Below, one piece after another: positions 4,835 to 26,090 of a stretch of DNA of 41,143 bases. The position numbers were made by a program, and so were the translations under genes. Under the pieces are notes generated by a model. That model was given only the letters and a program-made list of their open reading frames with translations. It searched no databases and was not told where the DNA came from. The stretch covers positions 9,785-50,927 of the forward strand of contig JBBDQU010000016.1 in NCBI GenBank assembly GCA_040905865.1. Direction: 5' to 3'. Origin of the DNA: Alphaproteobacteria bacterium. GTDB lineage: Bacteria > Pseudomonadota > Alphaproteobacteria > UBA8366 > GCA-2717185. The stretch's first letter is position 1; each line of letters begins with the position of its first letter.

Positions 4835-6262
4835 TTATAAATACGGCAACATCAGCCGCGCCGCCGCGTCCCGCAGACGCAAGGCAAGCGGTTGCGTCGC
4901 GAGTTGCGACGCCGGCACCCGGTGCGATACCGCGATCCTTGCGTCGATCATGCCGTCAATTTCCGCGGTGGTTGCACGGGAATACGCCTCCAGATTGAAT
5001 TCGAAGTTCAGTCTCGTGCTGCGAGTGTCCCAGTTTGCTGTTCCGATCAGGCACCAATGGCCATCCACGGTCATCAGTTTCGCGTGACTGAACGGCTGGG
5101 ATACCCGATAGATGCTGATGCCGGGTGGCAGCTGCCTGAGATGCGCACCCATGGCCCAGTCCAGCACGCGGTGGTCCGACCTTTCCGGAATGAGGATGTC
5201 TATCGAGAGTCCGCGCAGTGCCGCCCATTCTATCGCATACATGAGTTTCTCATCCGGGAGAAAATACGGCGTTACAATCCGTAGCCGTTTGTTGGCCGCA
5301 AAAATCGCGGCGGCCAGAACGGTTTCCAGAATTCCGACCTGCTCATCCGGACCGGAACTTATGCCGCGCGCCCAGACAGAACCGGCATTGTGGAGTTCGG
5401 GCCACCAGACGTCGTCGTCAAGCATCTCCCCGGTGGTAAACCCCCAATCCTCCGAAAACGTTTCCATAAGGTGGCGAACCGCCGGGCCCTCCACGCGAAA
5501 GTGAATATCGGAAACGGGATGCTCCGGGTGACGGCCGATAACGTTCTCGTCAGCGATATTCATCCCGCCGGTAAAAGCTGTCCTGCCGTCCACGACCAGT
5601 ATTTTCTTGTGGCTGCGCATGTTCAGATACGGCATCCGCCAGGGCAGCCTGTTATGGAGGAAGCGCGCAACGGTTACGCCTTCGCGGCGTAGCGCCCGAA
5701 CCGCGGGCGCGTAAAAATAGCCGCCGCCGATGCCGTCGATGAGCACCCGTACATGGACGCCCCGCGCTTGCGCTTCGCAAAGCGCCTTGATGAATAACCG
5801 GCCGACCCTGTCGGCCCGAAAGATGTAGGATGCAAACGCGATGCTGTGCCGGGCATTCCGTATCGCGGACAGCATCGCCGGGTAAGCCTTGTCACCGCAT
5901 TCCAGCGCAACGATGCTGTTGCCGCCGGTCAGCGCCTGCCCCGTCAGTTGTTTGACGACGCGTGCTATGAGGCCGATGTTTTCAGGAATCTCGGGGGCGG
6001 CGCATCCCTGCGGCGCAGCCGCGCGCAAATTGATCGCCTGACGCAGTCGCGAGGCGCGACGGGCAACGCGGTTTATCCCGAAGAAATAATATGCGGTTGC
6101 GCCGAAGAGCGGCGACAGCCACGCCACCCCGATCCAGGCAATCGCGGCCCGGACGGATCTGCGGCGGAGAAGAACATGGATCGTTACGGCGCCTCCCAGG
6201 ATCACGTGAATAACGCCGATCAGCATTCCGTGACTGAATAAATCCGGCAGGACATAGGTCAT
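4835..6262 (-). CDS. cls: Cardiolipin synthase / phospholipase D family protein
   Basis: Membrane-bound PLD-superfamily enzyme, 475 residues, probably joining two phosphatidylglycerol molecules into cardiolipin. Two hydrophobic segments open the protein (about 10-30 and 40-62), as in ClsA-type synthases. Two HKD motifs follow: HKKILVVD at 218-225 and HAKLMTVD at 393-400, each followed by a G(G/T)xN segment. The gene starts nine bases after the stop of the CheB-CheR-HWE kinase gene, so the two are very probably co-transcribed from the EcfG promoter at 9481-9506. Cardiolipin content commonly rises under osmotic and stationary-phase stress, in line with such control. Confidence 0.88.
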   Translation of the reverse strand: MTYVLPDLFSHGMLIGVIHVILGGAVTIHVLLRRRSVRAAIAWIGVAWLSPLFGATAYYFFGINRVARRASRLRQAINLRAAAPQGCAAPEIPENIGLIARVVKQLTGQALTGGNSIVALECGDKAYPAMLSAIRNARHSIAFASYIFRADRVGRLFIKALCEAQARGVHVRVLIDGIGGGYFYAPAVRALRREGVTVARFLHNRLPWRMPYLNMRSHKKILVVDGRTAFTGGMNIADENVIGRHPEHPVSDIHFRVEGPAVRHLMETFSEDWGFTTGEMLDDDVWWPELHNAGSVWARGISSGPDEQVGILETVLAAAIFAANKRLRIVTPYFLPDEKLMYAIEWAALRGLSIDILIPERSDHRVLDWAMGAHLRQLPPGISIYRVSQPFSHAKLMTVDGHWCLIGTANWDTRSTRLNFEFNLEAYSRATTAEIDGMIDARIAVSHRVPASQLATQPLALRLRDAAARLMLPYL

Positions 6263-6271
6263 CGAAGAATG

Positions 6272-9200
6272 TCAGCAGTCGGTCGCCGGGGCTGCGGCTC
6301 CGGGTGTAATAAGCTGCGACTGGGACTGCATGGGGATTTTCAACACCGCACGAACACCGTCAGGGTCGAAGCGGATATCCACCGTGCCGTCGAGTTCGTA
6401 TTCCACTTCACGTTCGATCAGCGTTGTTCCGTAGCCGCTTCCCCTGGGCGCGACGACAGCGGGACCGTCCGTTTCTCGCCAGCGTAGGACAAGCCAGTCT
6501 CCAATCTCGTCCTGTTCTGTCTTCCAGTCGATTGATACCCTGCCTTCGGACGCGGAAAGCGCGCCATACTTCACCGCGTTGGTTCCCAGTTCATGCAAAA
6601 CCATGCCAAGCGCCAGGGCGGCCTTCGGATTGACCCGCAACGGCGGACCCGAAAGCGAGATGCAAGCGTCACCGGACAGTTCATGCGCCTGCGTTGCATC
6701 GCGGATCAGTTCGGCCAGGTCGACACTGGTCCATCCCTCCTGCGAGATAAGATTATAGGAGGTGGCCATGGCCTCCAGGCGGCCCGAGAAGACCTCCACG
6801 AACGCTTCGGGATCGGTGGTGCGGCGGGCGGTCAGCCTGGCCAGCGCCATTATGACTGTCAGCATGTTCCGTACGCGGTGGTTCAACTCGTCGATCATGG
6901 TGCGAAGGTGATCCTCCGCATGCACGATCTCGCTGACATCCACGAACGTCACGAGTGTTCCCTCGACTCCCTCGCCGCCGCCCTGATACGGCAGTACTCT
7001 CATCAGGAAATGCTGATCGCCGCAATTCACGCGCCGTTCCAGCGGTTCGCCGGAATTCGCAACCGACTGAATGTTGTCGCACAGATCGGGCAGGTCCACC
7101 TTGTATGTAATGTCGGTCAGGGGACGGCCCCGATCGCTCGGGAGCAAATTGAAAATTCCTTGTACTTTCGGCGTAAACATGCGAATTCGCAGGTTCAGAT
7201 CGAGGAAGACAACGGCAATATCCGTGCCTGCGAAGACATTTTGAAGGTCGCTGTGCGCCGTATCGAGCGCGCGCATCTTCAACTCCAGATCGGCATTCAC
7301 ACTCTGGAGCTCCTCATTCATCGATTGAGACTCCTCCTTCGAGGTCTCCAGTTCCTCATTTGCCGATTGAAGCTCCTCATTCAGCGAAAGCAGCTCTTCA
7401 TTCGTGGACCGCGCTTCGTTCAATGAAATCTCATATTGCTCCGTTAACAGCTGAATACGCTCACGCATCTCGTGCAATTCCTGCTCCAGCTGTCTGCCAT
7501 CGTCTTCGGAGCGATTGGCCGGCAGGGGAATGCTGTCATTCTCCCGGACCTGCGTCGGTCCGGTTTCGTCAAACAGGACCACATACAGCGGTTCTTCCCT
7601 GTCGATGGTCAGGGGCTCAACGATCAGGACGACCGCCTGTACCTTGTCGCTGTCCGGTTCAAGCATCATGCCACGCCGGGATGCAGCGCGGTTCCCTTCC
7701 CGGGCCTCCTTCAAGGCGAGCATTAAATCGAAGCGCAATTCCTTCCGGGCCATCGGCAGAATCTGCTGGATCGGCTTTCCGGTGGAAAGTTCAAGATATT
7801 TTCCGGTGCCCGACGACGAATGGATAATATTCCCGGAACGATCCACGACCACGTGCGGCGGGACATAGCGCGCCACGACCAGTTCACCGACGGCGCGACT
7901 CACCGCCGACATGCCGGCCGTCCTGTTTCTGTAATGCCCCTCGCCGGCCGAACGGGTTCTGGTAAAGGGCAATATCGGGGCAGGCGCGGCGCGGCCCGGA
8001 TCATCGTTGCGCCTGAAAATCGAATTCGTGCTGTCCACCGGCGTAAACAGTTCGGTTCCCCTGGAAACGCTCTCCGATGTCCCAAGGAACAGGAATCCCC
8101 CGGATCGAAGAGCGTAGTGAAACACCGGAAGTAGCTGCTGCTGCAGGTCGCTGCCAAAATAGATCAGAAGATTGCGGCACGATATCAGGTCGAGCCGCGG
8201 AAAAGGCGGATCGTTTGTAATATTGTGATGCGAGAATACACACAGTTTACGCAACTCCTTGCGAACGGTATAGGTGAGACCGTCGCTGTCGAAGAAGCGT
8301 TCCTTGCGCTCTTCGGATACGCCGCGCAGCAGCGGGGCCGGATATCTTCCCGCTCGCGCGGCCGCCAGTGCGTCCTCGGCGAGGTCGCTGCCAAAAATGC
8401 AGATTTTGGGACGCGATCCCGCCCTTGCCGCACCTTCACTCAACAGGATAGCCAGTGAGTATACTTCCTCCCCGGTTGCGCATCCCGGAACCCAGACCCG
8501 AACATCCGTATTCGGGTCGATATCCTCCACAAGTTCCGGAATTACGTTTTTTTCCAGACTTTCAAACGCATCGTCGTTGCGAAAAAAATAGGTGACGCCT
8601 ATCAGCAGGTCCCGAAACAGGGCTTCGTGTTCCGCCGGATTGTCGCGCAATGTATCCACATAGTCGCCAACGTTGAAAATCTGCAGCACCTGCATCCGCC
8701 GCTGCACACGGCGCATGAACGAGCCTTCCTTGTAACCGCTGAAATCATGTCCCAACTGCTTTGCAAGCAGCGCGCATATCTCCAGACGAACCGCATCGGG
8801 ATCCTGCGTCGGCGTTTCTTCTTCTATTGCGGTTGCAACACTTTCCGCGGCCTTCAGGTAGGCGGTAATGCGATCCATCATCTTTTCAGGCGGAAGAATA
8901 TAGTCGCTCAGACCGGCGCTTATGACGCTTTCAGGCATGCCGGTATGCTTCGGTGTGGAATGATCGGCGCCCTGGGTGATGGACAGGCCCCCATGTTCCT
9001 TGATTCTCTTGACGCCGATGGTCCCGTCGCTGCCTGTACCCGAAAGGATGATACCGATCGCCCGTTCCGCCGCATCCGCCGCCAGCGAGGAAAAAAAGAT
9101 GTCGATCTGGTTGAGCGGGCGCTGGTTTCCGGCGGCGGCCACCTTCAGCCGCCCCGATTCAATCGTCAGTAAAGTGCCTGGCTGAATAACATGCACGCTG

Positions 9201-9418
9201 CCCGGCTCGACCGCATCGCCGTCTACCGCCGGCTTTACGGGAATCGGCGCACTACGGCGTAAAATCTCCACGAGCATACTCTCGCGATCCGGCGAAAGAT
9301 GCGCAATCACCACAAAGCCCATAGGGGTATCCGGCGCGATCGTCCGGAAAAACGCCTGCATCGGTTCCAGCCCGCCCGCGGACGAACCCAGCGCCACTAT
9401 GGGAAAATCGGTTGCCAA
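6272..9418 (-). CDS. CheB-CheR-PAS-HWE hybrid sensor histidine kinase
   Basis: A 1048-residue soluble multidomain signalling protein. Order: CheB methylesterase-like domain (1-190; catalytic Ser12 in GSSAGG, His in AHLSPD, Asp in SGTGSDG); CheR-like methyltransferase (about 210-480; GCATGEE SAM loop, SCRNLLIYF); a second globular part; a long coiled coil of NEEL(L/Q)S(L/A/V)NEE repeats (about 640-720); a PAS domain (about 725-830); and an HWE-family kinase core with His847 in ELNHRVRN, the N-box HELGTNAVKYG and WRE at 980-982. No receiver domain and no membrane segment. HWE/HisKA_2 kinases frequently feed the PhyR general stress pathway. An exact EcfG promoter lies 63 bases upstream, implying feedback (inference). 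The cls gene follows directly. Confidence 0.93.
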   Translation of the reverse strand: MATDFPIVALGSSAGGLEPMQAFFRTIAPDTPMGFVVIAHLSPDRESMLVEILRRSAPIPVKPAVDGDAVEPGSVHVIQPGTLLTIESGRLKVAAAGNQRPLNQIDIFFSSLAADAAERAIGIILSGTGSDGTIGVKRIKEHGGLSITQGADHSTPKHTGMPESVISAGLSDYILPPEKMMDRITAYLKAAESVATAIEEETPTQDPDAVRLEICALLAKQLGHDFSGYKEGSFMRRVQRRMQVLQIFNVGDYVDTLRDNPAEHEALFRDLLIGVTYFFRNDDAFESLEKNVIPELVEDIDPNTDVRVWVPGCATGEEVYSLAILLSEGAARAGSRPKICIFGSDLAEDALAAARAGRYPAPLLRGVSEERKERFFDSDGLTYTVRKELRKLCVFSHHNITNDPPFPRLDLISCRNLLIYFGSDLQQQLLPVFHYALRSGGFLFLGTSESVSRGTELFTPVDSTNSIFRRNDDPGRAAPAPILPFTRTRSAGEGHYRNRTAGMSAVSRAVGELVVARYVPPHVVVDRSGNIIHSSSGTGKYLELSTGKPIQQILPMARKELRFDLMLALKEAREGNRAASRRGMMLEPDSDKVQAVVLIVEPLTIDREEPLYVVLFDETGPTQVRENDSIPLPANRSEDDGRQLEQELHEMRERIQLLTEQYEISLNEARSTNEELLSLNEELQSANEELETSKEESQSMNEELQSVNADLELKMRALDTAHSDLQNVFAGTDIAVVFLDLNLRIRMFTPKVQGIFNLLPSDRGRPLTDITYKVDLPDLCDNIQSVANSGEPLERRVNCGDQHFLMRVLPYQGGGEGVEGTLVTFVDVSEIVHAEDHLRTMIDELNHRVRNMLTVIMALARLTARRTTDPEAFVEVFSGRLEAMATSYNLISQEGWTSVDLAELIRDATQAHELSGDACISLSGPPLRVNPKAALALGMVLHELGTNAVKYGALSASEGRVSIDWKTEQDEIGDWLVLRWRETDGPAVVAPRGSGYGTTLIEREVEYELDGTVDIRFDPDGVRAVLKIPMQSQSQLITPGAAAPATDC

Positions 9419-9480
9419 TGCATCGCCATCCTGAATTTTCGCATCAGAAACGCGCCGTGAAGTGGCCGGCGAGTACGGTA

Positions 9481-9506
9481 AACGCGAAATACGCCATTAC
9501 CGTTCC
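9481..9506 (-). promoter_or_regulatory. EcfG-type promoter of the CheB-CheR-HWE kinase operon
   Basis: On the - strand GGAAC (9506-9502) is followed after 17 bases by CGTT (9484-9481), the exact consensus for the alphaproteobacterial GSR sigma factor EcfG. The inferred TSS is near 9474, about 55 bases before the kinase ATG at 9418. Confidence 0.85.
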
Positions 9507-9528
9507 ATCCCGGGAGCCTCGGGCGCAC

Positions 9529-9891
9529 CTACTGCAGGATTCGCCGGAGCGCCGTTTCCAGTTCATATAACCGGAATGGCTTTTTCAGGACCTGTCGGTC
9601 CGCGTATTTAGGCTCGACAACCCTGTCGCTATAGCCGGTGCAGAATATGAACGGTATGCCTTTCCCGGCGAGAGCGTCGGCGACCACGAAGCTATCCTGA
9701 CCATTCAGATTCACGTCGAGGATCGCGGCGTCGATGCCTTTTTCCGTCAGCACCCGCAACGCCTGGGCAGGTTTCCTCGTCACTACCACGTTCCGGCAGC
9801 CTAACTCGTCGAGCAGTTCCTCCAGTAAAATCGTTATCATCATCTCGTCTTCCAGCACGAGAATGCGATGACGGGACAGCATATCGTCCAT
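9529..9891 (-). CDS. Single-domain response regulator (FAT GUY type)
   Basis: A 120-residue stand-alone receiver. Acidic pocket Glu14/Asp15, phospho-acceptor Asp59 (AILDVNL) and conserved Lys104/105 (LKKPF) are present; there is no output domain. The segment PFIFCTGYSD at 81-90 matches the PFxFATGY signature of the FAT GUY group of receivers, of which characterised members (such as SdrG) act in the general stress response phosphorelay. It ends 22 bases before the EcfG promoter of the neighbouring kinase, so it is a natural partner candidate. No EcfG motif was found in its own upstream region. Start ATG at 9891; ATG at 9882 is an alternative. Confidence 0.88.
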   Translation of the reverse strand: MDDMLSRHRILVLEDEMMITILLEELLDELGCRNVVVTRKPAQALRVLTEKGIDAAILDVNLNGQDSFVVADALAGKGIPFIFCTGYSDRVVEPKYADRQVLKKPFRLYELETALRRILQ

Positions 9892-10188
9892 CGGAAGGCA
9901 CCCCCCTGTCTTTCAAAAGATCTACGTGAATATTACGGCCTCCTTGGAACGCAAATGTCAGTGTCAGGGTCTTTATTTTGTCGCATTGTCACTGGACAGG
10001 CGCCGCAACCCGCTTCAGACCGCCCTGCCGGTGGTTCCCCGGCAACAGGGCTTCGCGGCGCGCATTACCGTCCAGATATTAAGCCACATTAAGATAGTAT
10101 TAACGCTGCCAGGATTTTGCAACTGCCAGTCGACGGGGAAAGCAAGGACGCAATCGGTAGAATCGGGGCACAGGACACAGGTCCATGT
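9892..10188. other. Intergenic region between divergent receiver and GST genes
   Basis: About 300 bases upstream of both the receiver (-) and the glutathione transferase (+). No convincing ORF is seen. A GGAAC at 9946-9950 lacks a correctly spaced CGTT. The region should hold the receiver's promoter, which I cannot identify. Confidence 0.5.
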
Positions 10189-10214
10189 GGAACCCGAAAC
10201 CGAAATCCGGCGTT
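10189..10214 (+). promoter_or_regulatory. EcfG-type promoter of the glutathione transferase gene
   Basis: GGAAC at 10189-10193, 17-base spacer, CGTT at 10211-10214. The inferred TSS near 10221 leaves a leader of about 48 bases before the TTG start at 10269. Confidence 0.85.
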
Positions 10215-10268
10215 TGCTGAAAATACGTCACAGCAACTGCCCATACCCGGCGAGACGGAAGCCAGCAA

Positions 10269-10865
10269 TTGAAACTCTATTGCAATCCAATCGTTCCCAG
10301 TACGCGCAGCATACTCGTGACGGCGATGGAAGCGGGCCTCGAAGACGAACTGGATATTGTCCGGACCGGCGGCACGGACGTCGAGGCTTCGGAGGCGGCA
10401 CGGGCGGCGGGAGTCGTTCAGGAACCCAGACTGGCCCTGGACGACGGGACTGTCATTGTCGGCGCGCAGCAGATTTGCGCCTGTCTGGACAGTCTGCATG
10501 AACGCCCGGGCATGATTCCCGGCGCCGGCGAGGCGCGACTTGAAATCGATCAGCTTGAATCGGCGGCGGAAGAACTGTTCGAGGCGGCGCTATACCGCTA
10601 CCAGGCGCTCCATTGGCCCGATACAGGCGACAACGTTGCGTCCGCGCAATGGCAGCGCATGCAGCAGATAATAGAGACACTGGAATCGGTTGCCGGAACG
10701 GTCATGACCGGCCCCGTCAATCTGGGTCAGATAGCCGTGGCCTGCACGCTTGGCTGGCTCGATAAATATCTTCCGGACGACGACTGGCGCAGCCGGTCGC
10801 CCGCGCTTGCCCGATGGTATCGCAGGTTTCGCGACCGTCCCTCGATGCGCGCCACAGAGCAATGA
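10269..10865 (+). CDS. Glutathione S-transferase family protein
   Basis: Probable cytosolic GST-fold protein, 198 residues. The N-terminus MKLYCNPIVPSTRSILVTAMEAGLE is the first strand and helix of the thioredoxin-like GST domain, with the usual Ser/Cys-region for glutathione near residues 5-12. The central ARAAGVVQEPRLALDDGTVIVGAQQICACLD corresponds to the G-site with the cis-Pro region (here less canonical) and the (E/Q)S-type helix, followed by an all-helical C-terminal domain ending in the common RSPALARWYRRFRDRPS pattern. Start is TTG at 10269, backed by GGAAG seven bases upstream. EcfG control suggests a role in detoxifying electrophiles during stress; the actual substrate is unknown. 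Confidence 0.85.
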   Translation: MKLYCNPIVPSTRSILVTAMEAGLEDELDIVRTGGTDVEASEAARAAGVVQEPRLALDDGTVIVGAQQICACLDSLHERPGMIPGAGEARLEIDQLESAAEELFEAALYRYQALHWPDTGDNVASAQWQRMQQIIETLESVAGTVMTGPVNLGQIAVACTLGWLDKYLPDDDWRSRSPALARWYRRFRDRPSMRATEQ

Positions 10866-10909
10866 TTTCCGGGCGACCGCCATCCAGGTCCGCTGACGTC
10901 GCGTTAACG

Positions 10910-10934
10910 GGAACGAATTGTCCCGGCCGCCGTT
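10910..10934 (+). promoter_or_regulatory. EcfG-type promoter of the molybdenum hydroxylase operon
   Basis: GGAAC at 10910-10914, 16-base spacer, CGTT at 10931-10934. The inferred TSS near 10941 is about 40 bases before the ATG at 10981. Confidence 0.85.
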
Positions 10935-10980
10935 AACCGAACGGGAACCATGGCTGCCCGCACCTGCCATTGAGGCGAGA

Positions 10981-11475
10981 ATGACCGAGACCGTGGCGCA
11001 GGAACATACTGTCGATCTGCATGTCAACGGAAGCCATTACCGGATCGCGGTGGATGAGCGTACCAGCCTGCTTGACGCCTTGCGCGACCGGCTGGGCCTG
11101 ATCGGCGCCAAGAAAGGCTGCGACCACGGCCAGTGCGGCGCATGCACCGTCCATATGGAAGGCCGCCCGGCTCTCGCGTGCCTGACATTCGCTGTCATGG
11201 CGGACGGACGGAACATCGTGACGATAGAGGGGCTCTATGGCGCCGACGGAAAACTGCACCCGATGCAGCAGGCCTTCATCGATCATGACGCTTTTCAATG
11301 CGGTTATTGCACGCCAGGCCAGATCATGGCGGCGGTGTCATGTGTTGTTGAGGGGCATGCGGAATCCGGCGCCGATATCCGTGACTACATGAGCGGAAAT
11401 CTCTGCCGCTGCGCGGCCTACCCGAACATCGTCGCCGCGGTGGAACAGGCCCGCGACCGGATGAAGGACGGCTGA
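10981..11475 (+). CDS. Molybdenum hydroxylase, [2Fe-2S] subunit (PaoA/YagT-like)
   Basis: Electron-transfer subunit of a xanthine dehydrogenase-family enzyme, 164 residues. The plant-ferredoxin-type cluster (CDHGQCGACTVH ... C) comes first and the second cluster (CGYCTPGQ ... CRCAAY) follows, as in PaoA, CoxS and related subunits. Unlike E. coli PaoA, no twin-arginine signal is present, so the complex is probably cytoplasmic. The ATG at 10981 is chosen because GAGG precedes it and the conserved part begins shortly after; an upstream extension to 10918 falls within the promoter. First gene of a three-gene operon; the next gene begins one base after its stop. Confidence 0.93.
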   Translation: MTETVAQEHTVDLHVNGSHYRIAVDERTSLLDALRDRLGLIGAKKGCDHGQCGACTVHMEGRPALACLTFAVMADGRNIVTIEGLYGADGKLHPMQQAFIDHDAFQCGYCTPGQIMAAVSCVVEGHAESGADIRDYMSGNLCRCAAYPNIVAAVEQARDRMKDG

Positions 11476-11476
11476 C

Positions 11477-12478
11477 ATGCAGCGCTTCAGCTTTGAACGC
11501 GCAAAAACCGCGCGCGATGCGGCGATCTCGGCACAATCGGACAACTGCCGGTTCATTGCCGGCGGCACCAACCTGATCGACTATATGAAGCTCGGCGTCG
11601 AGCGTCCCGAGGCGCTGATCGACATCAATTCCCTGGCGCAAGGCGATCCCGGAACGATCCGGGCGAACCCGGAGGAATTGCGGCTGGGGGCGCTGGTTCG
11701 AATGGCCGATGCCGAGGCGCATCCCGAAATCCGTCGCAGCTATCCCGTTATCGTCGACGCGTTGCGCCTCGCCGCGTCGCCCCAGATTCGCGCCATGGCA
11801 AGCCTTGGCGGCAATGTCCTGCAGCGAACGCGATGCGAATATCTGCGCGAACGGTCGTGGCCCTGCAATCGGCGGGATCCGGGAAGCGGCTGCGCCGCAT
11901 TCAACGGCATCAACCGCGAACACGCCATCCTTGGCGTAAGCGATGCGTGTATCGCGGCCTATCCGGGGGATCTCGCACAGGCGCTTATCGTGCTGGACGC
12001 GACGGTGGAAACGATGAGCCGAGGCGGCGGCCGGATTATCGCCTTCGCCGACCTGCACCGTCCGCCCGGCAATTCCCCGGAAATCGAGACGATCCTCGAT
12101 CCTGGCGAGTTGATTACCTTCTTTTCGGTACCGGCAGGCCCGCATACCCGGCGGTCACGCTTCGTAAAGATACGCGACCGGGCCTCGTATCAGTTTGCGC
12201 AGGCATCGACGGCCGTTGCGCTCGATCTCGACGGCGACATCGTGCGCGACGTACGAATTGCCCTCGGCGGCGTCGCAACGGTCCCATGGCGGGCGCGGCA
12301 GTCGGAGGCCCTCCTGCGCGGGCGCAAGCTCGACGAAGCCGCTGCACGGGATGCGGCCGAGTGCGCATTTGCCGACGCAGAAACACGCGATCGCAACGGG
12401 TTCAAGCTGACGCTGGGCAGGCAGACCGTCATGCGCGCACTGCTTGAAACCGTCACGATGGAGATCGGGGATGGATGA
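11477..12478 (+). CDS. Molybdenum hydroxylase, FAD-binding subunit (PaoB/YagS-like)
   Basis: FAD subunit of the same enzyme, 333 residues. FAD-binding signatures FIAGGTNLIDYMKLG and SLGGNVLQRTRC are visible. A cysteine-rich insert (TRCEY ... WPCNRRDPGSGCAAF ... DACIAAYPGD, about residues 116-165) matches the extra [4Fe-4S]-binding loop that distinguishes PaoB/YagS and 4-hydroxybenzoyl-CoA reductase from ordinary CoxM subunits. The C-terminal CO_dehydrogenase flavoprotein domain (VRDVRIALGGVATVPWRA) is complete. The gene overlaps the start of the large subunit by eight bases, indicating coupled translation. Confidence 0.92.
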   Translation: MQRFSFERAKTARDAAISAQSDNCRFIAGGTNLIDYMKLGVERPEALIDINSLAQGDPGTIRANPEELRLGALVRMADAEAHPEIRRSYPVIVDALRLAASPQIRAMASLGGNVLQRTRCEYLRERSWPCNRRDPGSGCAAFNGINREHAILGVSDACIAAYPGDLAQALIVLDATVETMSRGGGRIIAFADLHRPPGNSPEIETILDPGELITFFSVPAGPHTRRSRFVKIRDRASYQFAQASTAVALDLDGDIVRDVRIALGGVATVPWRARQSEALLRGRKLDEAAARDAAECAFADAETRDRNGFKLTLGRQTVMRALLETVTMEIGDG

Positions 12479-14732
12479 TACGACCCGATCGTCCCGGGGC
12501 GAAGCGGACATGGCGCCGCCGCGTATCGACGGGCGTCTCAAGGTCACCGGCGCATGCCGCTACGCCGCCGATTTCCGGTTGCGCGGCCTTGCCCACGCCG
12601 TAATGGTAACGAGCGATATCGCCCGCGGCCGGATTGAGGCGGTCGACATGGATGCGGCGCGGGCTGTTCCAGGCGTGCTCGATATCCTGAGTCATGGCGA
12701 TATGGAGGGTGTGAACCCGCCCGGCTTCGGGACATCCAGTTTTACATCGCTCGGCCCCCTGCATACGCAGGACATCGTCCATGACGGCCAGATTGTCGCC
12801 CTCGTGGTTGCCGAAAGTTACGAGGCCGCATGCGAGGGCGCCGAGGCCGTTGCGATTACCTATGCCCGCGAACCGGCCGCCGGCACCCTTTCGGCTGATG
12901 GAGTCGAGGTTGAGGAGGACGAGGACAGCGCGGTGTCGACAGGCGACTTCGACGCCATTTTCGCCGATGCGCCTGTCCAGCTCGATCTGGAATATCATAC
13001 GGCATCCGAGACCCATAACGCCATCGAGCTGTTCTCCACGACCTGCGTTTGGGAGGAAGGCCGCCTCACGGTTTATGAGCCGAGCCAGAACGTGTTTGGC
13101 TTCCGGGGACAGATTGCCGCCCAGCTTGGGATCGAGCCCGGCCTGGTGCGTGTGATCAGCCCGTATGTCGGCGGCGGCTTCGGTTCGAAAGGACCGATCA
13201 CACCGCGTACGGCCATCGTCGCGGTTGCGGCCCGGCGCCTCGGCCGGCCCGTCCGCTGCGTTGCCACGCGCATGCAGGGTTACACCACAACGAGCTACCG
13301 CGCGGAAACGCGTCAGCGCGTGCGGATAGGGGCGCACCGGGACGGGCGGATCGCCGCATTCGGCCATGACGGCTGGGAGCTGACGTCACGCACGGACGAC
13401 TATATCACCGGGGGAAACGACCTTACGGTTCGTCTGTATGGTTATGACGCCGTCTGTGCGCGCACATATGCCGTGCGAACGGATCGCCAGACCCCCGGTT
13501 ACATGCGGTCGCCGCCGGAAACGCCATACGTTTTCGCATTGGAAACGGCGCTGGACGAACTGGCCGAAAAGCTCCGGATCGACCCGGTGGCATTGCGCCG
13601 GATCAACGACACCGATATCGACCCGGTTTCCAGAAAGACTTACACCAGCCGTTCCCTGATGCAGTGTTACGATGCCGCTTCCGATGCGTTCGGCTGGTCG
13701 CGCCGCAACCCGGCCCCGCGATCCATGCGCGACGGCGAATGGCTTGTGGGGTTCGGCTGCGCCACCGCCACGTATCCGACACACGTTGCCGCCGCGACGG
13801 CGCGGGTGCGCTTCGGGGCGGACGGAAGCGTCCTGGTGGAGAGCGCCTCGCACGAGATTGGCACGGGGATTCGAACGGTCGCCGCCCAGATGGCCGCCGA
13901 GCGGCTGGGCGTGCCGCTGTCGTCCGTTTCGGTCGCGATGGGCGACACCGACCTGCCCCCGGCGCCGGTATCCGGCGGTTCGAACAGTACGGCAAGCGTC
14001 TGTTCGGCGGTGATGCAGGCTTGCGATCGCATCCGCGACCGTTTGTTTCGCGCCGCACCCGCGGACAGCCGTCTTGGCAACGGAGACCCCGACTCGTTCC
14101 GGATAAAAGACGGCGCGGTCAGGGCCGGTGAAAACCGCATCCTTGGAATCGAGGAAGTGTTCAGGTCCATGGGGGCCGGCATGATCGAGGAATATGCCGA
14201 GTTCGTACCCGCGGGGGCGCCCGATGACGCAATCCGCAAGCTTTACGACGGCAAAACCAGCATGGTCGGCGAGTATATGGGCAGCAAGCTTATGTATGCG
14301 TTCGGCGCAATATTCGTCGAGGTCCGCGTGCACTCGCGCACCCGGGAAATACGCGTACCGCGAATGACCGGCGCCTTTGCCGCCGGTCGGATCATGAACC
14401 CGCGCACGGCGCGCAGTCAGTTGATGGGCGGCATGATCTGGGGCATGAGCTGCGCGCTGCTGGAGGAAACCCAGATCGATCCCCATACCGCGCGCTACGT
14501 CAACCGGGACCTGCAGGATTACCTGCTGCCGGTCAACGCGGATATCGGCGAGGTTGATGTTCTGTTTGTTCCCGAAGAAGACAACGAAGTGAATCCCGCC
14601 GGCGTAAAGGGGCTCGGAGAGTTGGGAAACGTGGGCACAAACGCCGCAGTTGCCAATGCCGTCTATCACGCCACGGGAAAGCGCGTGCGCCATTTCCCCA
14701 TCAGGATTGAAGACCTGCTCGAAACCGGATGA
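12471..14732 (+). CDS. Molybdenum hydroxylase, molybdopterin-binding subunit (PaoC/YagR-like)
   Basis: Catalytic subunit, 753 residues, expected to oxidise an aldehyde or heterocycle at a molybdenum cofactor (MCD type by subfamily). The fold shows the N-terminal aldehyde oxidase hammerhead domain (about 15-130), GGGFGSKG (about 235-242), and near the C-terminus KGLGELGNVG, which carries the catalytic base glutamate. The active-site loop usually written RAPGEA reads MRSPPETP here, a departure that may affect substrate choice. Start ATG at 12471 has a GGGG just upstream and overlaps the FAD gene; the frame extends to 12444 without similarity. A mocA-like cofactor insertase or XdhC is not seen next door. 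EcfG control hints at aldehyde detoxification under stress (inference). Confidence 0.92.
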   Translation: MDDTTRSSRGEADMAPPRIDGRLKVTGACRYAADFRLRGLAHAVMVTSDIARGRIEAVDMDAARAVPGVLDILSHGDMEGVNPPGFGTSSFTSLGPLHTQDIVHDGQIVALVVAESYEAACEGAEAVAITYAREPAAGTLSADGVEVEEDEDSAVSTGDFDAIFADAPVQLDLEYHTASETHNAIELFSTTCVWEEGRLTVYEPSQNVFGFRGQIAAQLGIEPGLVRVISPYVGGGFGSKGPITPRTAIVAVAARRLGRPVRCVATRMQGYTTTSYRAETRQRVRIGAHRDGRIAAFGHDGWELTSRTDDYITGGNDLTVRLYGYDAVCARTYAVRTDRQTPGYMRSPPETPYVFALETALDELAEKLRIDPVALRRINDTDIDPVSRKTYTSRSLMQCYDAASDAFGWSRRNPAPRSMRDGEWLVGFGCATATYPTHVAAATARVRFGADGSVLVESASHEIGTGIRTVAAQMAAERLGVPLSSVSVAMGDTDLPPAPVSGGSNSTASVCSAVMQACDRIRDRLFRAAPADSRLGNGDPDSFRIKDGAVRAGENRILGIEEVFRSMGAGMIEEYAEFVPAGAPDDAIRKLYDGKTSMVGEYMGSKLMYAFGAIFVEVRVHSRTREIRVPRMTGAFAAGRIMNPRTARSQLMGGMIWGMSCALLEETQIDPHTARYVNRDLQDYLLPVNADIGEVDVLFVPEEDNEVNPAGVKGLGELGNVGTNAAVANAVYHATGKRVRHFPIRIEDLLETG

Positions 14733-14881
14733 CGGCCCGCGCCACCGTCCGCGACGCGCCCGCTTCCGGCCAGACGGACGCGGGGCGGCGGTGTGCATGC
14801 GGCTGGCCGTGATCCGACCGGATGGCCGACACAGCATCCGTATCGTCCGGTATTAAATTCCGGTATCGGACAGGAATCACC

Positions 14882-14907
14882 GGAACAAAACCCCCGATGA
14901 GCTCGTT
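14882..14907 (+). promoter_or_regulatory. EcfG-type promoter of the second single-domain receiver
   Basis: GGAAC at 14882-14886, 17-base spacer, CGTT at 14904-14907. The inferred TSS near 14914 lies downstream of an upstream in-frame ATG at 14897, which helps fix the true start at GTG 14942. Confidence 0.85.
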
Positions 14908-14941
14908 TCAATACTATAGTGCCAATAACCGGGATGTCGTC

Positions 14942-15331
14942 GTGAAGGTGCTTATCGTTGAGGACAATGTATTCGTTGGCATGCATCTGGAAGACGCGTT
15001 ATGGCGGCTGGGCCATGAAGTGATAGGGCCTGTGAAGACAGTGGAAGAAGCGATCGCACTGATATCCAATGGCGACGTCGAGTTTTCCCTGGTCGACGTG
15101 GAACTGGAAGAAAGTCTTGCGACGGACGTAGCCCAGGAACTCTGCGATCGGTCCATCCCGTTCATCTACGTTACCGGCTGCGATGAAAGGCTGGTGCGCG
15201 CGACGATGCCAGAGGGGCCTATCCTGAGCAAGCCCGTTTCCATGGCCCGGCTTCGCAAGGTACTGCAGCCCGGGCAACGCGATGACGCACGCAAGGCGCC
15301 GGCAAGGAACTACGAGATAGAACCGCTATAA
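14942..15331 (+). CDS. Single-domain response regulator (FAT GUY-like)
   Basis: A stand-alone receiver of 129 residues. From the GTG start the protein reads MKVLIVEDNVFVGMHLE, a textbook receiver N-terminus; Asp52 (SLVDVEL) is the phospho-acceptor and Lys97 (LSKPVS) the conserved lysine. PFIYVTGCDE (73-82) resembles the FAT GUY signature PFxFATGY, with Cys in place of Tyr. The last 20 or so residues are a charged tail without known function. Longer starts at 14822 and 14897 are rejected because the EcfG promoter at 14882-14907 would place transcription start after them. Together with the receiver at 9529-9891 it gives the window two possible phosphorelay partners for the HWE kinase. Confidence 0.87.
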   Translation: MKVLIVEDNVFVGMHLEDALWRLGHEVIGPVKTVEEAIALISNGDVEFSLVDVELEESLATDVAQELCDRSIPFIYVTGCDERLVRATMPEGPILSKPVSMARLRKVLQPGQRDDARKAPARNYEIEPL

Positions 15332-15422: not shown

Positions 15423-15509
15423 TTATTTTGTGGTGTCCATTTTTCGTCCAATGTAGCACGCCAGAATGGCGATAAGGGCAGCGATAACCATTAACAACAT
15501 AAACTCCAT
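15423..15509 (-). CDS. 28-residue predicted membrane peptide
   Basis: A short ORF encodes a 28-residue peptide with one hydrophobic helix (MEFMLLMVIAALIAILACYI) and a basic, hydrophilic tail GRKMDTTK. A strong purine-rich AGAGGGGAG lies a few bases upstream of the ATG at 15509, which is the main argument that it is translated. Its topology suggests N-out/C-in by the positive-inside rule. I do not recognise a family. No EcfG motif was found upstream. Confidence is moderate because of its length. Confidence 0.5.
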   Translation of the reverse strand: MEFMLLMVIAALIAILACYIGRKMDTTK

Positions 15510-15736: not shown

Positions 15737-15886
15737 TTTCCCCCTCTCGTTGGGGTCGGTGGGAATTCTCCCGGGCTCCGCCATCGACGGAGACGCCTTA
15801 AAATCAAACGCGAAACAGCCTGCACGGTTCCGAAGGCCTTTCGAATTTTCGGTGCTGAACCGCACATTGCTCAAGGTCATCCGGAA

Positions 15887-21445: not shown

Positions 21446-21697
21446 TCACGCGATCAGCGTCAGGCCGAACAGGATCGCCAGCCACAGGCCCGTGGCGGCA
21501 ACGGCGAGCCGTGGCAACATCCCGTGCGAAGACAGGTGCATGAACAGTGTTGCAATCAGCGTGGCTTTGCCCGCCGCAATAACGATGTTGAGAACGGCGT
21601 TGAATACGCCGAGTTCCACGAAAGAAAATCCGACGGTCAGACCGAGCAGCGCCATGAGCGCCCCATAGATCATGAAAAGTTTGCCGGTCTCGCTCAT
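21446..21697 (-). CDS. caa3 oxidase subunit IV
   Basis: An 83-residue protein with three hydrophobic helices (about 7-30, 33-53, 62-82), matching the small COX4/prokaryotic cytochrome c oxidase subunit IV family. The motif KATLIATLFMHL in the second helix is typical. It helps assemble or stabilise the oxidase and carries no redox centres. The ATG at 21697 overlaps the stop of the subunit III gene as ATGA, the same coupling seen through the operon. It is the last gene of the respiratory cluster. Confidence 0.85.
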   Translation of the reverse strand: MSETGKLFMIYGALMALLGLTVGFSFVELGVFNAVLNIVIAAGKATLIATLFMHLSSHGMLPRLAVAATGLWLAILFGLTLIA

Positions 21698-22332
21698 CGG
21701 TCTATCAGGTAGAGGATCGGAAACAGGAAGACCCAGACGATATCCACGAAATGCCAGTACAGCCCCATCGCCAGTATCCGCCGTCCGCGGCCCGCATCGC
21801 CTGTCCGGCGCCACATGCCCAGTATCCACAGCATGGCGACGAGCCCGCCGAGCAGGTGGGCCGCGTGCAGCGATGTCATCGTGAAATAGAGATTGAAGAA
21901 ATATTCGGCGTGGACCGGTTCCGGCCCCTCGTAACGGAACGCCAACCCGAGAACCGGCGCCAGCCCCTCGCGGAATTCGCTGTAATATTCGTAACCCTTT
22001 ATCGCCAGGAACGCCGTGCCAAGGCATGCCGTTGCGGTCATGGCCAATACGCAGGGGCGCCAATTGGATTTCCGTGAATACGCGTGGGCGAGGGCCATCG
22101 TCAGGCTGCTGGTGATCAGCACGGCCGTATTGAAGGTCCCCAGAGGCAGGGAAAGGTGCTGCGACGCGGCAGAAAATGTCTCGGCATGTTCAAGCCTTGC
22201 GGTGAGGTAGACCAGCAGCAATGCGCCGAACAGCATCGCTTCCGAACCAAGAAAGATCCACATTGCGAAAGCGTCGGCTGCCCGCTCCCGCGCCGCGATC
22301 CTGAAGGCCTCGCTCTGCGTGTTGTCGGTCAT
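21694..22332 (-). CDS. ctaE: caa3 oxidase subunit III
   Basis: Heme-copper oxidase subunit III, 212 residues with five predicted helices: ([16 protein letters not shown]), ([19 protein letters not shown]), ([21 protein letters not shown]), ([19 protein letters not shown]) and ([18 protein letters not shown]). The last, YWHFVDIVW, is the classic subunit III signature. The five-helix length (not seven) is common for caa3-type enzymes. Start and stop overlap the adjacent subunit I and IV genes by four bases each. Confidence 0.93.
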
Positions 22333-23939
22333 GGTCCCTCTTCCGGTGGCGGATAGGCATAGGGTGGACCTGAGACACGCGGCAGTTCATCGAAGTTATG
22401 CACAGCGGGCGGCGACGACGTCCGCCATTCGAGACCGGTCGCATTCCACGGGTTGTCCGTGGCGCGAGGCCCCCGGAACACTGACCAGCCCAGATAAAAG
22501 AGCGGCATCAGATAGCCCACGGCCAGCACCACAGCCCCTGCGGAGGACAGCACATGCCAGAAACTGAACTCCGGCGGATAGGCATGATAGCGCCGCGGCA
22601 TGCCGAGATAGCCGAGCACGAATTGCGGGAAAAAGGTGAGGTTGAATCCGATGAAGGTCGTCGCCGCCGCGATTCGTCCCCACAGCTCGGAGTAGAGCCG
22701 ACCCGTCATCTTCGGCCACCAGAAATGCAGCCCGGCCATGTAGGCCGTCACCATTCCGCCGACCATGATGTAATGGAAGTGGGCGACGACGAAATAGGTG
22801 TCGTGAAGATGCACGTCGACCGCGAGCGAGGCGACAAAAAGCCCGGTAAGGCCGCCAAAGGTGAATAGTCCGAGAAATCCCAGGGCATACAGCATCGGCG
22901 TTTCGAAACTGATAACCCCCTTGCGCAGCGTGAGGCTCCAGTTGAATACCTTTATGGCCGACGGAATTGCGACGCAAAATGACAGGAAGGAAAAAACGAT
23001 TCCGGCGTAGGCGGACTGGCCGCTGACAAACATGTGGTGGCCCCAGACGAGGAAGCCAAATATCGCTATGGCCATGCTGGCCAGGGCAACCGCCTTGTAG
23101 CCGAACAGCGGACGCCGGCTGAAACAGGGAATAATCTCCGAAATGACCCCCATGCCCGGCAGGATCATGATGTACACGGCGGGATGCGAATAGAACCAGA
23201 AGAGGTGCTGGAACAGCAGGGGATCGCCGCCAAGCGCCGGGTCGAAAACGCCGATTCCGAAGACCCGTTCGAGGACGATCAGGATGAGCGCCGCGGCCAG
23301 AACCGGCGTGGCGAGAACCATCACGAGGCTGGTCGCATACATCGTCCAGACAAAGATTGGCAGCCTGAACCAGGTGAGGCCCGGTGCGCGCAGCAAATGG
23401 ATCGTCACGATGAAGTTGATGCCTGTCATGATCGTGGAGAAGCCGACGATGAACACGCCGAGCGCCGCGATGCTGACAAAGCTGTTGGAATAGAGGCTGG
23501 AATAGGGCGTGTAGAAGGTCCAGCCGGTGTCGACGCCGCCGGCAATCACGGCGAACAGCGCAAACAGGCTGCCGACCATGAACACGTACCAGCTCGCGAG
23601 GTTCAGGCGGGGAAACGCCAGGTCCCGGGCGCCGAGCATGAGCGGCAGCAGGAAATTGCCCAGCGTGGCGGGGATTGACGGCACCAGGAAGAACCAGATC
23701 ATGATGATGCCGTGGATCGAAAAGAGACGATTGTAGACGTCGTCGGTGACCAGATCGCCCGCCGGCGTGGCCAGTTCGAGCCGCATTATTACCGCCATGG
23801 CGCCGCCAACGAAGAAGAACATTGTCAACGACGCGAGATACAGCCAGGCGACCCGCTTGTGGTCGGTCGTCAGCAGCCACGAACGAACGCCCGAGCCTTC
23901 CTGGAAATAGGATTCCGGCGTGGCGGCGGTCTGCGTCAT
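22329..23939 (-). CDS. ctaD: caa3 oxidase subunit I (A2-type heme-copper oxidase)
   Basis: Catalytic subunit, 536 residues, about twelve helices. It binds low-spin heme (His76, His389), high-spin heme (His387) and CuB (His252, His301, His302), with Tyr256 placed for the His-Tyr cross-link. The D-channel glutamate of A1 enzymes (HPEVY) is replaced: the motif reads YSHPAVYIM at 250-258, the tyrosine-serine signature of A2-type oxidases such as those of Rhodothermus and Thermus. The K-channel region ([11 protein letters not shown], Lys330) is present. It reduces oxygen to water while pumping protons. Overlaps subunits II and III by ATGA. Confidence 0.96.
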
Positions 23940-24880
23940 TGCACGCTCTCCCCGGGCGACAGGGACCGGACATATTCGGTGAGCATCTGCAGTTCCGATT
24001 CATCGATGAGGCCGTCGTAACTCGGCATGACCGGTTCGTACCCGGCAGCGATCTCCTTGTCCGGCATCAGGATCGAGTCGCGGATGTAACGGTCATCGGC
24101 TATCGTTGCCGTACCGTTCGAAAGAGCCACCGGACGGCCGAAAACACCGTCGAGCCGCGGCGCGCGGACCTGGCTCGAATCGCCGTGACAACCGGAGCAG
24201 CCGAGCGCGCGGAACAGCCTTCCGCCTGCCTGTGCAAGCGATTCGCCTTCACCCTGCAGTTCCAGCCATTCGGCGAATGCCGCCGGCTCCATCACAATGA
24301 CGAAACCGCCCATCGCCGAGTGTTCGGTGCCGCAGAATTCAGCGCAGAACAGGCGGTAACGACCCGGCCTGGTCGCAGTGAACCAGACATGGCTTGCGCG
24401 GCCGGGCACAACGTCCTGCTTGACCCGAAATGCCGGCACATAGAATGAGTGGATGACGTCCTGGGATGCCATCGATACGACAACCGGCTGATCGACAGGA
24501 ACATGAAGCTCGTTGATCTCCCGCTGGCCACCGGGATGACGGAACTGCCACATCCACTGTTTGCCGATCGCCGAGATTTCCAGCGCATTGGCGGGTGGAT
24601 TGTCCCGGTCGAGGAACAAGACAGCGCCCCATACGAACAGTCCCAGGGCGACCAGGAACGACGTGCTGGTCCAGCCGATTTCCAGCCGCAGGTTGCGTGT
24701 CCGCCTGCCGGAGCGGTCCGCGCTGCTGCCGGCGCGATAACGCACGGCGTATCCGACAACGAGAATCGTCAGAAAGAGGCCGATGCCGAACGAAAACGCC
24801 ACCAGGGTATAGAACAGCGTGTCTATGCCAGCCGCCCCTGCGGCGGCGCTTTCCGGTATGAACCGTATCTGGTCGTTCAT
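23936..24880 (-). CDS. ctaC: caa3 oxidase subunit II with fused cytochrome c
   Basis: Electron-entry subunit, 314 residues. Two N-terminal membrane helices (about 20-46 and 70-92) anchor a periplasmic cupredoxin domain with the CuA ligands His144, Cys179, Cys183, His187 and Met190 ([12 protein letters not shown]). A C-terminal cytochrome c domain binds heme through CSGCH (228-232) with a likely Met ligand in VMPSY; this fusion defines the caa3 class. No lipobox or cleavable signal is evident. The ATG at 24880 overlaps the SCO stop; the longer frame to 25012 lies inside the SCO gene and is rejected. Confidence 0.95.
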
Positions 24881-25638
24881 GACCGGTTCCTCCGGAACAG
24901 GAGGACAAGGATGGCTAGGGAGAGAAGGAGCACGGTCAGGAATCCGCCAATCTGCAGCGATGCCATGACGACAGAGGTGTATCGACCCTTTGAGTCGTCG
25001 AACCCTGCGCACAGAAGGAACACCTGATCTGCGACCGATCCCAGCCGGCCCCGCGAGGCCTCCACGAGAGCAAGGCGGAGATCGCGCGCCTCAAACGCCA
25101 TGGCGGGCAGGACACGCGCAATCCGCGCGTCGGGCGTCAGGGCGAAAATCGCTATCGGGTGTACGAATTGCCCGGCATGGGTGCGCGTCTGGAATGTCAG
25201 GCCGGACTCGCGAGCGAGGCGCGCGCCGGCGCCCCCGGCATCGGTGAGGAACCGCCACGGCCGGACGACATCCTCATCCGTGGCATCCGCGAGTTTGGCC
25301 CGCGCTTCGCGGGCGTCCCGGGAGGTTTCGTTGCTGTCGATGGAGATGAACAGGGCATTGTAGTCGCGCTCGTCCAATCCCGTTTCCGACAGGGCGTTTG
25401 CGACTGCCGTCTGCGCGACGCCGCAAAGATTTGGACACTTGGCGTATCCGAAAATCATCAGGGCAGGTTTTTCGGCAAGCGCCTCTTTCAGGGATATCGC
25501 CTGACCGTCGCCTGTACGAAATGGACTGTCCAGCGACAGGGTCGCGCCGATTTCCGGCGTGAATTCGGGTCGGGTATAGGCGCTGGCGCCAGACCAGGTG
25601 GCGAGAGCGACCAGCAACAGGGCGGTGGCGCGTCTCAT
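24877..25638 (-). CDS. SCO1/SenC copper chaperone with C-terminal anchor
   Basis: Thioredoxin-fold protein that delivers copper to the CuA site of subunit II; 253 residues. A signal peptide (MRRATALLLVALATWSGASA) is followed by the SCO domain with the copper ligands Cys68 and Cys72 (CPNLC) and His160 in the HAGQFVHP region. A C-terminal hydrophobic helix (about 225-247) followed by RRN anchors it from the periplasm, an arrangement often seen in SCO proteins encoded beside ACIII-caa3 clusters. ATG at 25638 has GGAGGCG upstream and overlaps the stop of the preceding gene. Confidence 0.92.
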   Translation of the reverse strand: MRRATALLLVALATWSGASAYTRPEFTPEIGATLSLDSPFRTGDGQAISLKEALAEKPALMIFGYAKCPNLCGVAQTAVANALSETGLDERDYNALFISIDSNETSRDAREARAKLADATDEDVVRPWRFLTDAGGAGARLARESGLTFQTRTHAGQFVHPIAIFALTPDARIARVLPAMAFEARDLRLALVEASRGRLGSVADQVFLLCAGFDDSKGRYTSVVMASLQIGGFLTVLLLSLAILVLLFRRNRS

Positions 25639-26090
25639 TCGACGCCTCCTTCCAATTGCTGCCGGATTGCCGAACGGCACCGTGCTGCCTGCGGGGCGCG
25701 TGGCACGGCAGCCATGAGAAACCGGCAATCCCCATCCGCATTTGCGGCCTTCTGTCCCCAGTCCGGAAAGCCGTTCTCCGCCGCGATGCGCAGGGCGTCG
25801 GCAACCGGTATCCGCGCTATGCCGGCATCCCGGTCAACCCAGCCCAGGGTCGTCAGCGCCTGTTGTTCGCGCTGCCGAAAGGCCGCGAGTTCGGATTTTG
25901 GCGACCGCTGAAGAAGCGGACCGGACCCTTGCTGTTCGACGACAGTCGAAGGCCACCGCGCCGCCGTGTCGAAGAACAGGGCCAGAAGGGTCAGCGACGC
26001 CACGAGGAAGAGAATCAAACCGACACCGAAGACGATCAGCGCCTTCGGGGAGACGTCGCGGCTCTCCGGTTGCCTGGAATTATCCGGCAC
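25635..26090 (-). CDS. Single-span membrane protein of the ACIII-caa3 cluster
   Basis: A 151-residue protein with one N-terminal transmembrane helix (ALIVFGVGLILFLVASLTLLALFF) and a periplasmic domain. The stretch ALTTLGWVDRDAGIARIPVADAL matches a motif (GWVDRxxGxxRIPxxxA) that recurs in small unnamed proteins encoded next to SCO and ACIII genes; its function is not established but placement suggests an assembly or supercomplex role. Two cysteines near the C-terminus (DCRF, ARCRS). The start is GTG at 26090, supported by GGGGAGG seven bases upstream and by an 11-base overlap with actF; an upstream ATG at 26255 lies inside actF. Confidence 0.8.
   Translation of the reverse strand: MPDNSRQPESRDVSPKALIVFGVGLILFLVASLTLLALFFDTAARWPSTVVEQQGSGPLLQRSPKSELAAFRQREQQALTTLGWVDRDAGIARIPVADALRIAAENGFPDWGQKAANADGDCRFLMAAVPRAPQAARCRSAIRQQLEGGVE

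Follow-up and report, generated by a model that had tools for sequence, protein, structure and literature searches.

A soluble CheB-CheR-HWE histidine kinase with EcfG-type promoter motifs and a glutamate-pair coil on which its methylation domains may act

The stretch of 41,143 nucleotides analysed here (the window) is part of contig C16 of an alphaproteobacterial genome (GCA_040905865.1; 4.37 Mb, 85 contigs, completeness score 100%) and encodes, at 6272-9418 on the minus strand, a histidine kinase fused to CheB and CheR, the methylesterase and the methyltransferase known from chemoreceptor adaptation. The locus raises the question of what these two enzymes act on, and of which pathway the kinase serves. 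The answer we favour, with a probability of about 0.4, is that the kinase is a soluble protein induced by an EcfG-type sigma factor, that it signals to small receivers of the FATGUY type, and that CheB and CheR act on a coiled coil within the kinase itself.

The kinase is 1048 amino acids long and starts with a TTG at 9418. Pfam places CheB_methylest, CheR_N, CheR, PAS_10 and HWE_HK in this one frame, as expected from the initial annotation, which had described a CheB-CheR-HWE kinase without a membrane segment. In order, the chain carries the CheB methylesterase domain (8867-9397, minus strand like the whole gene), with no receiver domain in front of it, the CheR methyltransferase (CheR_N and the S-adenosylmethionine-binding domain, 8024-8782), a first PAS-like domain (residues ~497-624, PAS-like by predicted secondary structure only), a long single predicted helix (residues 642-731, 7226-7495), the PAS_10 domain (6935-7246) and the HWE histidine kinase domain (6644-6889). 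The assignments of CheB and CheR come from Pfam and from alignment to the solved proteins, those of PAS_10 and HWE from Pfam. The 19-residue Kyte-Doolittle mean reaches a maximum of only 1.4, so that a membrane helix is unlikely and the kinase appears to be soluble. In the kinase core H847, N947 and W980-R-E982, presumably the functional residues of an HWE core, are conserved, and they are invariant across the three relatives aligned. The nearest kinase relatives, in genomes G057 and G087, share 44-45% identity, and a further relative is the L122 copy of Brevundimonas intermedia; a contig scan with the single kinase protein as query gave nine pattern matches and no confirmed relative.

Residues S13, H40 and D131 of the CheB domain align with the catalytic serine, histidine and aspartate of solved CheB, and we take them to be its catalytic triad. 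All 33 fusion rows keep S13 and H40 unchanged and at least 90% of them keep D131, while R280, T315-E318 and D345 of CheR are invariant in all 33, so that by alignment the catalytic residues of both domains appear intact, as had been annotated. The statement that no chemoreceptor is encoded nearby turned out to be too modest, since the signalling domain of methyl-accepting chemotaxis proteins (PF00015, E 0.001) has no match in the whole genome, with 10 of 10 candidates scored. The intact-looking CheB and CheR therefore need another substrate. The same genome has at least three CheB-CheR kinases, namely the window copy, one of the HWE type on contig C9 and one of the HisKA type on contig C38; the usual substrate is thus removed in a genome which does have such fusions. 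The C9 copy (C9:965-4482; L045/L118) is a second CheB-CheR-PAS-HWE kinase, whose frame is broken between PAS and kinase core by a real mutation or an assembly error. The C38 copy (C38:19471-26143; L117) has an EcfG-like gene for a sigma factor of the extracytoplasmic function (ECF) group, the second such gene, about 3 kb away.

A candidate substrate lies between CheR and the kinase core. Five Glu-Glu pairs (E674/675, E681/682, E688/689, E695/696 and E702/703; 7307-7402, minus strand) follow each other with a period of seven residues. In most cases N or K precedes the pair and S, T or A stands three residues past it. AlphaFold2 (mean predicted local distance difference test, pLDDT, 82.2; predicted template modelling score 0.50) predicts residues 642-731 as one 90-residue helix between two PAS-like domains, with pLDDT 42-59 up to residue 680 and 73-81 beyond; the model is read here only for its predicted helices and strands and for its confidence values, and of the 33 rows in its alignment 31 stem from loci found by the coil pattern. 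In the proposed mechanism CheR would methylate, and CheB demethylate, glutamates of this coil. Because the Glu-Glu coil leads to the PAS domain and the kinase core, the kinase would in this way set its own gain without a receptor.

The array and the two enzymes mostly occur together in the sets of sequences compared, which were obtained with queries that themselves contain the coil or, for the public loci and the frame counts given below, were largely selected for it. With the full-length kinase as query, 13 of 14 CheR-containing frames hold four to eight E/Q pairs at exactly seven-residue spacing (at least five pairs in 12). A query with the coil only, run on 289 genomes of the class, gave 37 matches in 28 genomes; 34 are in frames with CheR (two of these assigned from separate searches) and one, in G181, is in a frame with CheB only, so that 35 of 37 are fused to CheR and/or CheB, and the two with neither enzyme are both weak (E 2e-4 and 4e-4). 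An alignment of coil plus PAS was scanned against 84,980 species genomes, and the best 80 of 571 relatives were taken as public loci. CheB and CheR are in the same frame in 69 of these; the remaining eleven include five at contig ends, two broken in frame with both enzymes present, two with CheR only (L141, L168), one with CheB only (L121) and one broken gene with neither (L147). Among frames of at least 300 residues, where one gene is at times represented by several pieces, five or more pairs in a row are found in 113 of 121 with a CheR motif and in 9 of 871 without it; eight of these nine are CheB/CheR fusions, or pieces of them, which the motif missed, three of them being one gene. The coil occurs with CheB/CheR whatever the type of kinase. 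A few loci keep the coil with a single enzyme, CheB in L121 and L208 and CheR in L141 and L168, and these natural versions would be useful for work on the cis model.

Conservation within the coil is reversed with respect to what an ordinary coiled coil would lead one to expect, namely a core conserved above its surface. The coil-only search leaves 31 non-redundant sequences, that of the window among them, once rows with over 10 array gaps are dropped. Their entropy averages 0.18 bits over the Glu pairs, compared to 1.15 and 1.88 at core positions a and d and 1.95 in the PAS part; this set avoids the loci found by peptide patterns, yet its query is the coil itself. A larger set of 100 sequences is biased, because the peptide patterns by which most of its loci were picked up already include the Glu pairs. 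These values bear on the possibility that CheB and CheR serve for binding or sensing (of S-adenosylmethionine, for instance) or are relics, and that the coil is an ordinary signalling helix conserved for folding. The two domains do occupy the position of a sensor, CheB and methyltransferase domains are counted as kinase inputs in part of an Azospirillum survey (PMC4618731), and the single-enzyme loci named above exist. However, the serine and the histidine of the triad are invariant in 33 diverse fusions, with the aspartate kept in at least 90%, and conservation is far higher at the Glu pairs than in the hydrophobic core of the coil, and we regard this explanation as distinctly unlikely.

The kinase has small receivers for neighbours. 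Receiver 1 (P0002; 9529-9891, minus strand) is directly upstream of the kinase and receiver 2 (P0003; 14942-15331, plus strand) starts with a GTG; both are single-domain proteins by Pfam. A start of receiver 2 at 14822 was rejected, because the promoter motif at 14882-14907 would fall inside that frame, and GTG 14942 is thus the likely start. The two proteins share 27% identity, and no other protein of the genome matches receiver 1 better than receiver 2 does. The full FATGUY motif (PFIFCTGY) is present in receiver 1, together with ILDVN and LKKPF, while in receiver 2 (PFIYVTGC, with LVDVE and LSKPV) the last position of the motif is off, being a cysteine. Motif, phospho-accepting aspartate and lysine are thus found in a stand-alone receiver in both cases, and the best solved relatives of both are Sma0114 (2lpm) and SdrG (5ieb), in support of the earlier assignment of two FATGUY-type receivers. 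According to the parts of the literature consulted, FATGUY receivers shuttle phosphoryl groups between kinases (PMC5898713, PMC5964349, PMC9981736) and are not exclusive to stress signalling, examples being Sma0114, CckA and CpdR (PMC5964349, PMC9981736). The kinase would autophosphorylate on its HWE histidine and pass the phosphoryl group to receiver 1, perhaps also to receiver 2. From there the receivers would work, like MrrA and SdrG, as shuttles or sinks of phosphoryl groups for other kinases or other partners, but not via PhyR.

The pairing recurs elsewhere. By similarity to the window kinase 32 of the 80 public loci are of the HWE type; the other 48 include some that are truncated at the end of a contig, and also the broken gene L147, in which pieces of HWE are seen. 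Within 1.5 kb, a small relative of receiver P0002 or P0003 is found in 20 of the 32 HWE-type loci and in none of the 48 others (Fisher P 6e-11, treating loci as independent); since the two window receivers were the queries, receivers of other kinds would escape. Of the 32, only six have a nearby receiver with PFx[FY]x[ST]G, the strict form of the motif, and the aligned receivers vary at these positions. In G087 and G057 a receiver directly follows the kinase. The HWE-type CheB-CheR kinase and its receiver are therefore a recurrent pair, as had been proposed for the window alone.

Two further explanations can be weighed on this pairing. According to the first, the receivers serve other kinases, such as those with HWE or HisKA_2 domains on C9 or C64, and stand near the window kinase only because of the regulon island. 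The genome has only three HWE/HisKA_2 matches (C16, C9 and C64), and FATGUY receivers are described, in part of one paper, as potentially promiscuous hubs (PMC5964349). But receiver 1 lies directly upstream of the window kinase on the same strand and the pairing recurs in the HWE-type loci, which leaves this explanation improbable. According to the second, CheB and CheR are active enzymes with a substrate in trans, which could be a receiver, a transcription factor or a different kinase, and the coil is a rod for docking or dimerisation. The lack of a chemoreceptor match and the conserved catalytic residues would fit, and a target of CheR other than a receptor has been published, since Salmonella CheR methylated R112 of PhoP in vitro; in the same assay, as far as the excerpt of that paper goes, methylation of Glu sites was not detected (PMC8546571). 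The small receiver, which is the sole type of partner surveyed, stands beside HWE-type kinases only, whereas the coil accompanies CheB/CheR in any type of kinase. Action in trans is ranked second and is on the whole unlikely; modification in cis is ranked as the most likely use of the coil.

Upstream of both the kinase and receiver 2 we find the promoter signature of EcfG-type sigma factors, for which a spacer of 16-17 bases is the general rule. The motif GGAAC-N17-CGTT is present at 9481-9506 (minus strand), 63 nt from the TTG of the kinase, and at 14882-14907 (plus strand), where 35 nt separate it from the start GTG of receiver 2, so that the exact EcfG promoters which had been annotated at these two genes are there as motifs. 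In part of a description from R. etli the motif is GGAAC-N16-CGTT, with a spacer of 16 bases (PMC3892343). The window contains 15 copies of GGAAC-N16/17-CGTT (eight with N16, seven with N17), compared to a mean of 0.78 and a maximum of four in 100 dinucleotide shuffles, and to 1.2 expected at the rate outside the window (P about 4e-12). Genome-wide there are 141 copies and 69 of the backwards pattern, a control which across 114 genomes is not neutral, eight of the eleven genomes with PhyR over cut-off showing no clear excess; we therefore relied on the shuffles and on the density inside and outside the window. Eleven of the 15 motifs are followed, at 11-63 nt, by the start codon of a gene in the same orientation, and the other four are about 300 nt from a start or within another gene. 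Besides the kinase and receiver 2, the genes preceded are those for a glutathione S-transferase (55 nt), a molybdenum hydroxylase set (47 nt, ATG 10981), the gene of start 16387 (35 nt), Ku (12 nt), superoxide dismutase (11 nt), PCC (47 nt), a PRC-barrel protein (37 nt), a sugar dehydrogenase (49 nt) and MdoG (41 nt), with the distances for Ku, PCC, the dehydrogenase and MdoG taken to an in-frame ATG downstream of the longest start. Because of this clustering the window reads as an EcfG-type regulon island with the kinase and receiver 2 among its members. Stress would free an EcfG-like sigma factor, which would transcribe the kinase, together with a phospholipase-D-type gene, and receiver 2. 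This gene (cardiolipin synthase-like by Pfam; 4835-6262, minus strand) starts 9 nt past the kinase stop and probably shares an operon with the kinase.

The motif alone does not place the kinase in the PhyR-NepR-EcfG general stress response, which the initial annotation had taken as its pathway. PhyR was searched with NCBIfam NF006623 in 114 genomes, scoring in most of them the best 20 candidates (20 of 41 in the genome of the window, G000). Nothing over cut-off, and nothing spanning both domains, was found in this genome or in G001-G042, which are of the same genus, family or order and of which several are incomplete, some only 62-65% complete; matches in G000-G042 cover essentially either the sigma-like or the receiver part. 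Of the 114 genomes, 11 have PhyR over cut-off, and none of these belongs to the order of the window; G087 has a partial match, and G057, with one of the two nearest kinases, has none by NF006623. A search of the window's genome with PF22233 agrees, giving no PhyR with 22 of 22 candidates scored. NepR (PF18557, E 0.001), searched in this genome only, has no match among 43 of 43 candidates; the Caulobacter control gave a match, and as NepR is short, a divergent copy could escape. A candidate for PhyR on contig C54 was rejected, since it reads as an ECF factor followed by a gene resembling a membrane-bound anti-sigma factor.

A kinase serving as input to the standard pathway would be expected to come with EcfG-type motifs, an HWE core and FATGUY receivers, which are typical of it according to parts of two papers (PMC5898713, PMC5964349). 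With PhyR found neither in a genome scored as 100% complete nor in its order, and NepR not found in the genome, this explanation is nearly refuted, and a route to PhyR in this organism is very unlikely. The description of the module as self-reinforcing is therefore left with the promoter motifs of the kinase and receiver 2. These two genes may well be outputs of a stress sigma factor, being EcfG-type targets by motif, but membership of the PhyR pathway found no support. What is shared with the general stress response is the GGAAC-N16/17-CGTT motif and perhaps the EcfG-like ECF factors. Three of the latter, at C24, C38 and C22, have up to 43%, 41% and 39% identity, respectively, to PhyR-adjacent ECF factors of other families (L110, L111, L112, L114). 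Among the ECF loci examined, only that at C24 shows the motif ahead of the sigma gene, at a distance of about 600 nt with an 82-amino acid frame between, and the C24 factor is taken as the first candidate for the sigma factor which would read the motif. Its gene is at C24:6389-7536 (L094), next to genes for a DUF2254 membrane protein and a PRC-barrel protein. The motif cluster itself spans 9481-40864 and makes up a stress regulon island, in an order for which PhyR was not detected.

Several observations weigh against the reading of an EcfG-induced kinase which modifies its own coil. More than one ECF factor is a candidate for reading the motif, and receiver 1 has no exact EcfG motif of its own. 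Among the public loci an EcfG-type motif (N15-18) within 400 nt upstream precedes 3 of the 32 HWE-type kinases (0.43 expected) and none of the 48 others (0.33 expected; Fisher P 0.06), while in the stretches compared around the two nearest relatives an exact motif is absent from G087, and the single one in G057 stands more than 2 kb from the kinase on the opposite strand. Since the motif precedes only three of the 32, stress control of HWE-type CheB-CheR kinases is not general, and EcfG control of the kinase-receiver pair is occasional at best. As to the coil, the frame of G083 (L105) has CheR fused without a Glu-pair array, the sole exception among the 14 CheR-containing frames. The consensus for receptor methylation is given, in part of one paper, as [ASTG][ASTG]XX[EQ][EQ]XX[ASTG][ASTG], the second Glu occupying position c of the heptad (PMC6829392). 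Small residues (S/T/A) are mostly found at -3 and +3 of each pair, which are two of the four small positions of this consensus; in the five pairs of the window those at -3 and +3 are small, +4 is small in two and -4 in none, and with the hydrophobic residues taken as a-d the Glu pairs fall at f-g and not at c. With another register and an incomplete set of small residues the coil is thus no receptor methylation helix by definition, and may nonetheless work like one. The near-total invariance of the glutamates is stricter than receptor sites need and could reflect a structural or docking role; as these positions hardly vary and hold hardly any Gln, E-to-Q substitutions are uninformative on methylation or deamidation. 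Finally, coil and enzymes might be found together simply because one architecture was inherited as a whole.

Compared with known systems, the locus combines parts of several. SdrG of Sphingomonas melonis, MrrA of Caulobacter and Sma0114 of Sinorhizobium meliloti resemble the window receivers in the motif PFxFATG[G/Y] and in having HWE kinases as companions; SdrG and MrrA work in the PhyR pathway, whereas here PhyR was not found and the motif of receiver 2 ends in Cys. Fusions of CheB, CheR and PAS to histidine kinases, with the same enzymes and coil, are found in records titled Proteobacteria, Verrucomicrobia, Flavobacterium, Planctomycetaceae, Chloroflexi and others; the HWE core is found in 32 of the 80 loci, 20 of them with a related receiver nearby, and control by the sigma motif is an addition in the window locus and at most a few others. 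With chemoreceptor adaptation the kinase shares the two enzymes and heptad-spaced Glu pairs with small residues at -3 and +3, and it differs in that the enzymes and the putative acceptor are one chain, CheB has no receiver domain, the register is f-g and the genome gave no receptor match.

Such fusions are common, and a search of open-licence articles in PubMed Central found no paper on the coil, the mechanism or the substrate of CheB-CheR kinase fusions. The Glu-pair helix offers a specific and testable replacement substrate for CheB and CheR in these kinases. It is tempting, on tentative grounds, to extend the proposal to CheB-CheR-PAS kinases of many phyla, which might be one-chain adaptive kinases, each carrying a methyl-accepting helix (as a rule of five to eight Glu-Glu heptads) and tuning itself without a chemoreceptor, the window copy being a stress-induced example in an order that would run an EcfG-type regulon without PhyR and NepR. 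If this were true, reversible methylation would serve for adaptation in soluble kinases generally and would not be a speciality of chemoreceptors.

A few further features of the window may be added. Between receivers 1 and 2 are found the glutathione S-transferase-like gene and the three genes of the molybdenum hydroxylase set. A tiny reading frame for a hydrophobic peptide of 28 amino acids (15423-15509, minus strand) lies about 0.3 kb downstream of the EcfG motif at 15807-15831, and a gene cluster for an alternative complex III and a cytochrome oxidase occupies 21446-32659.

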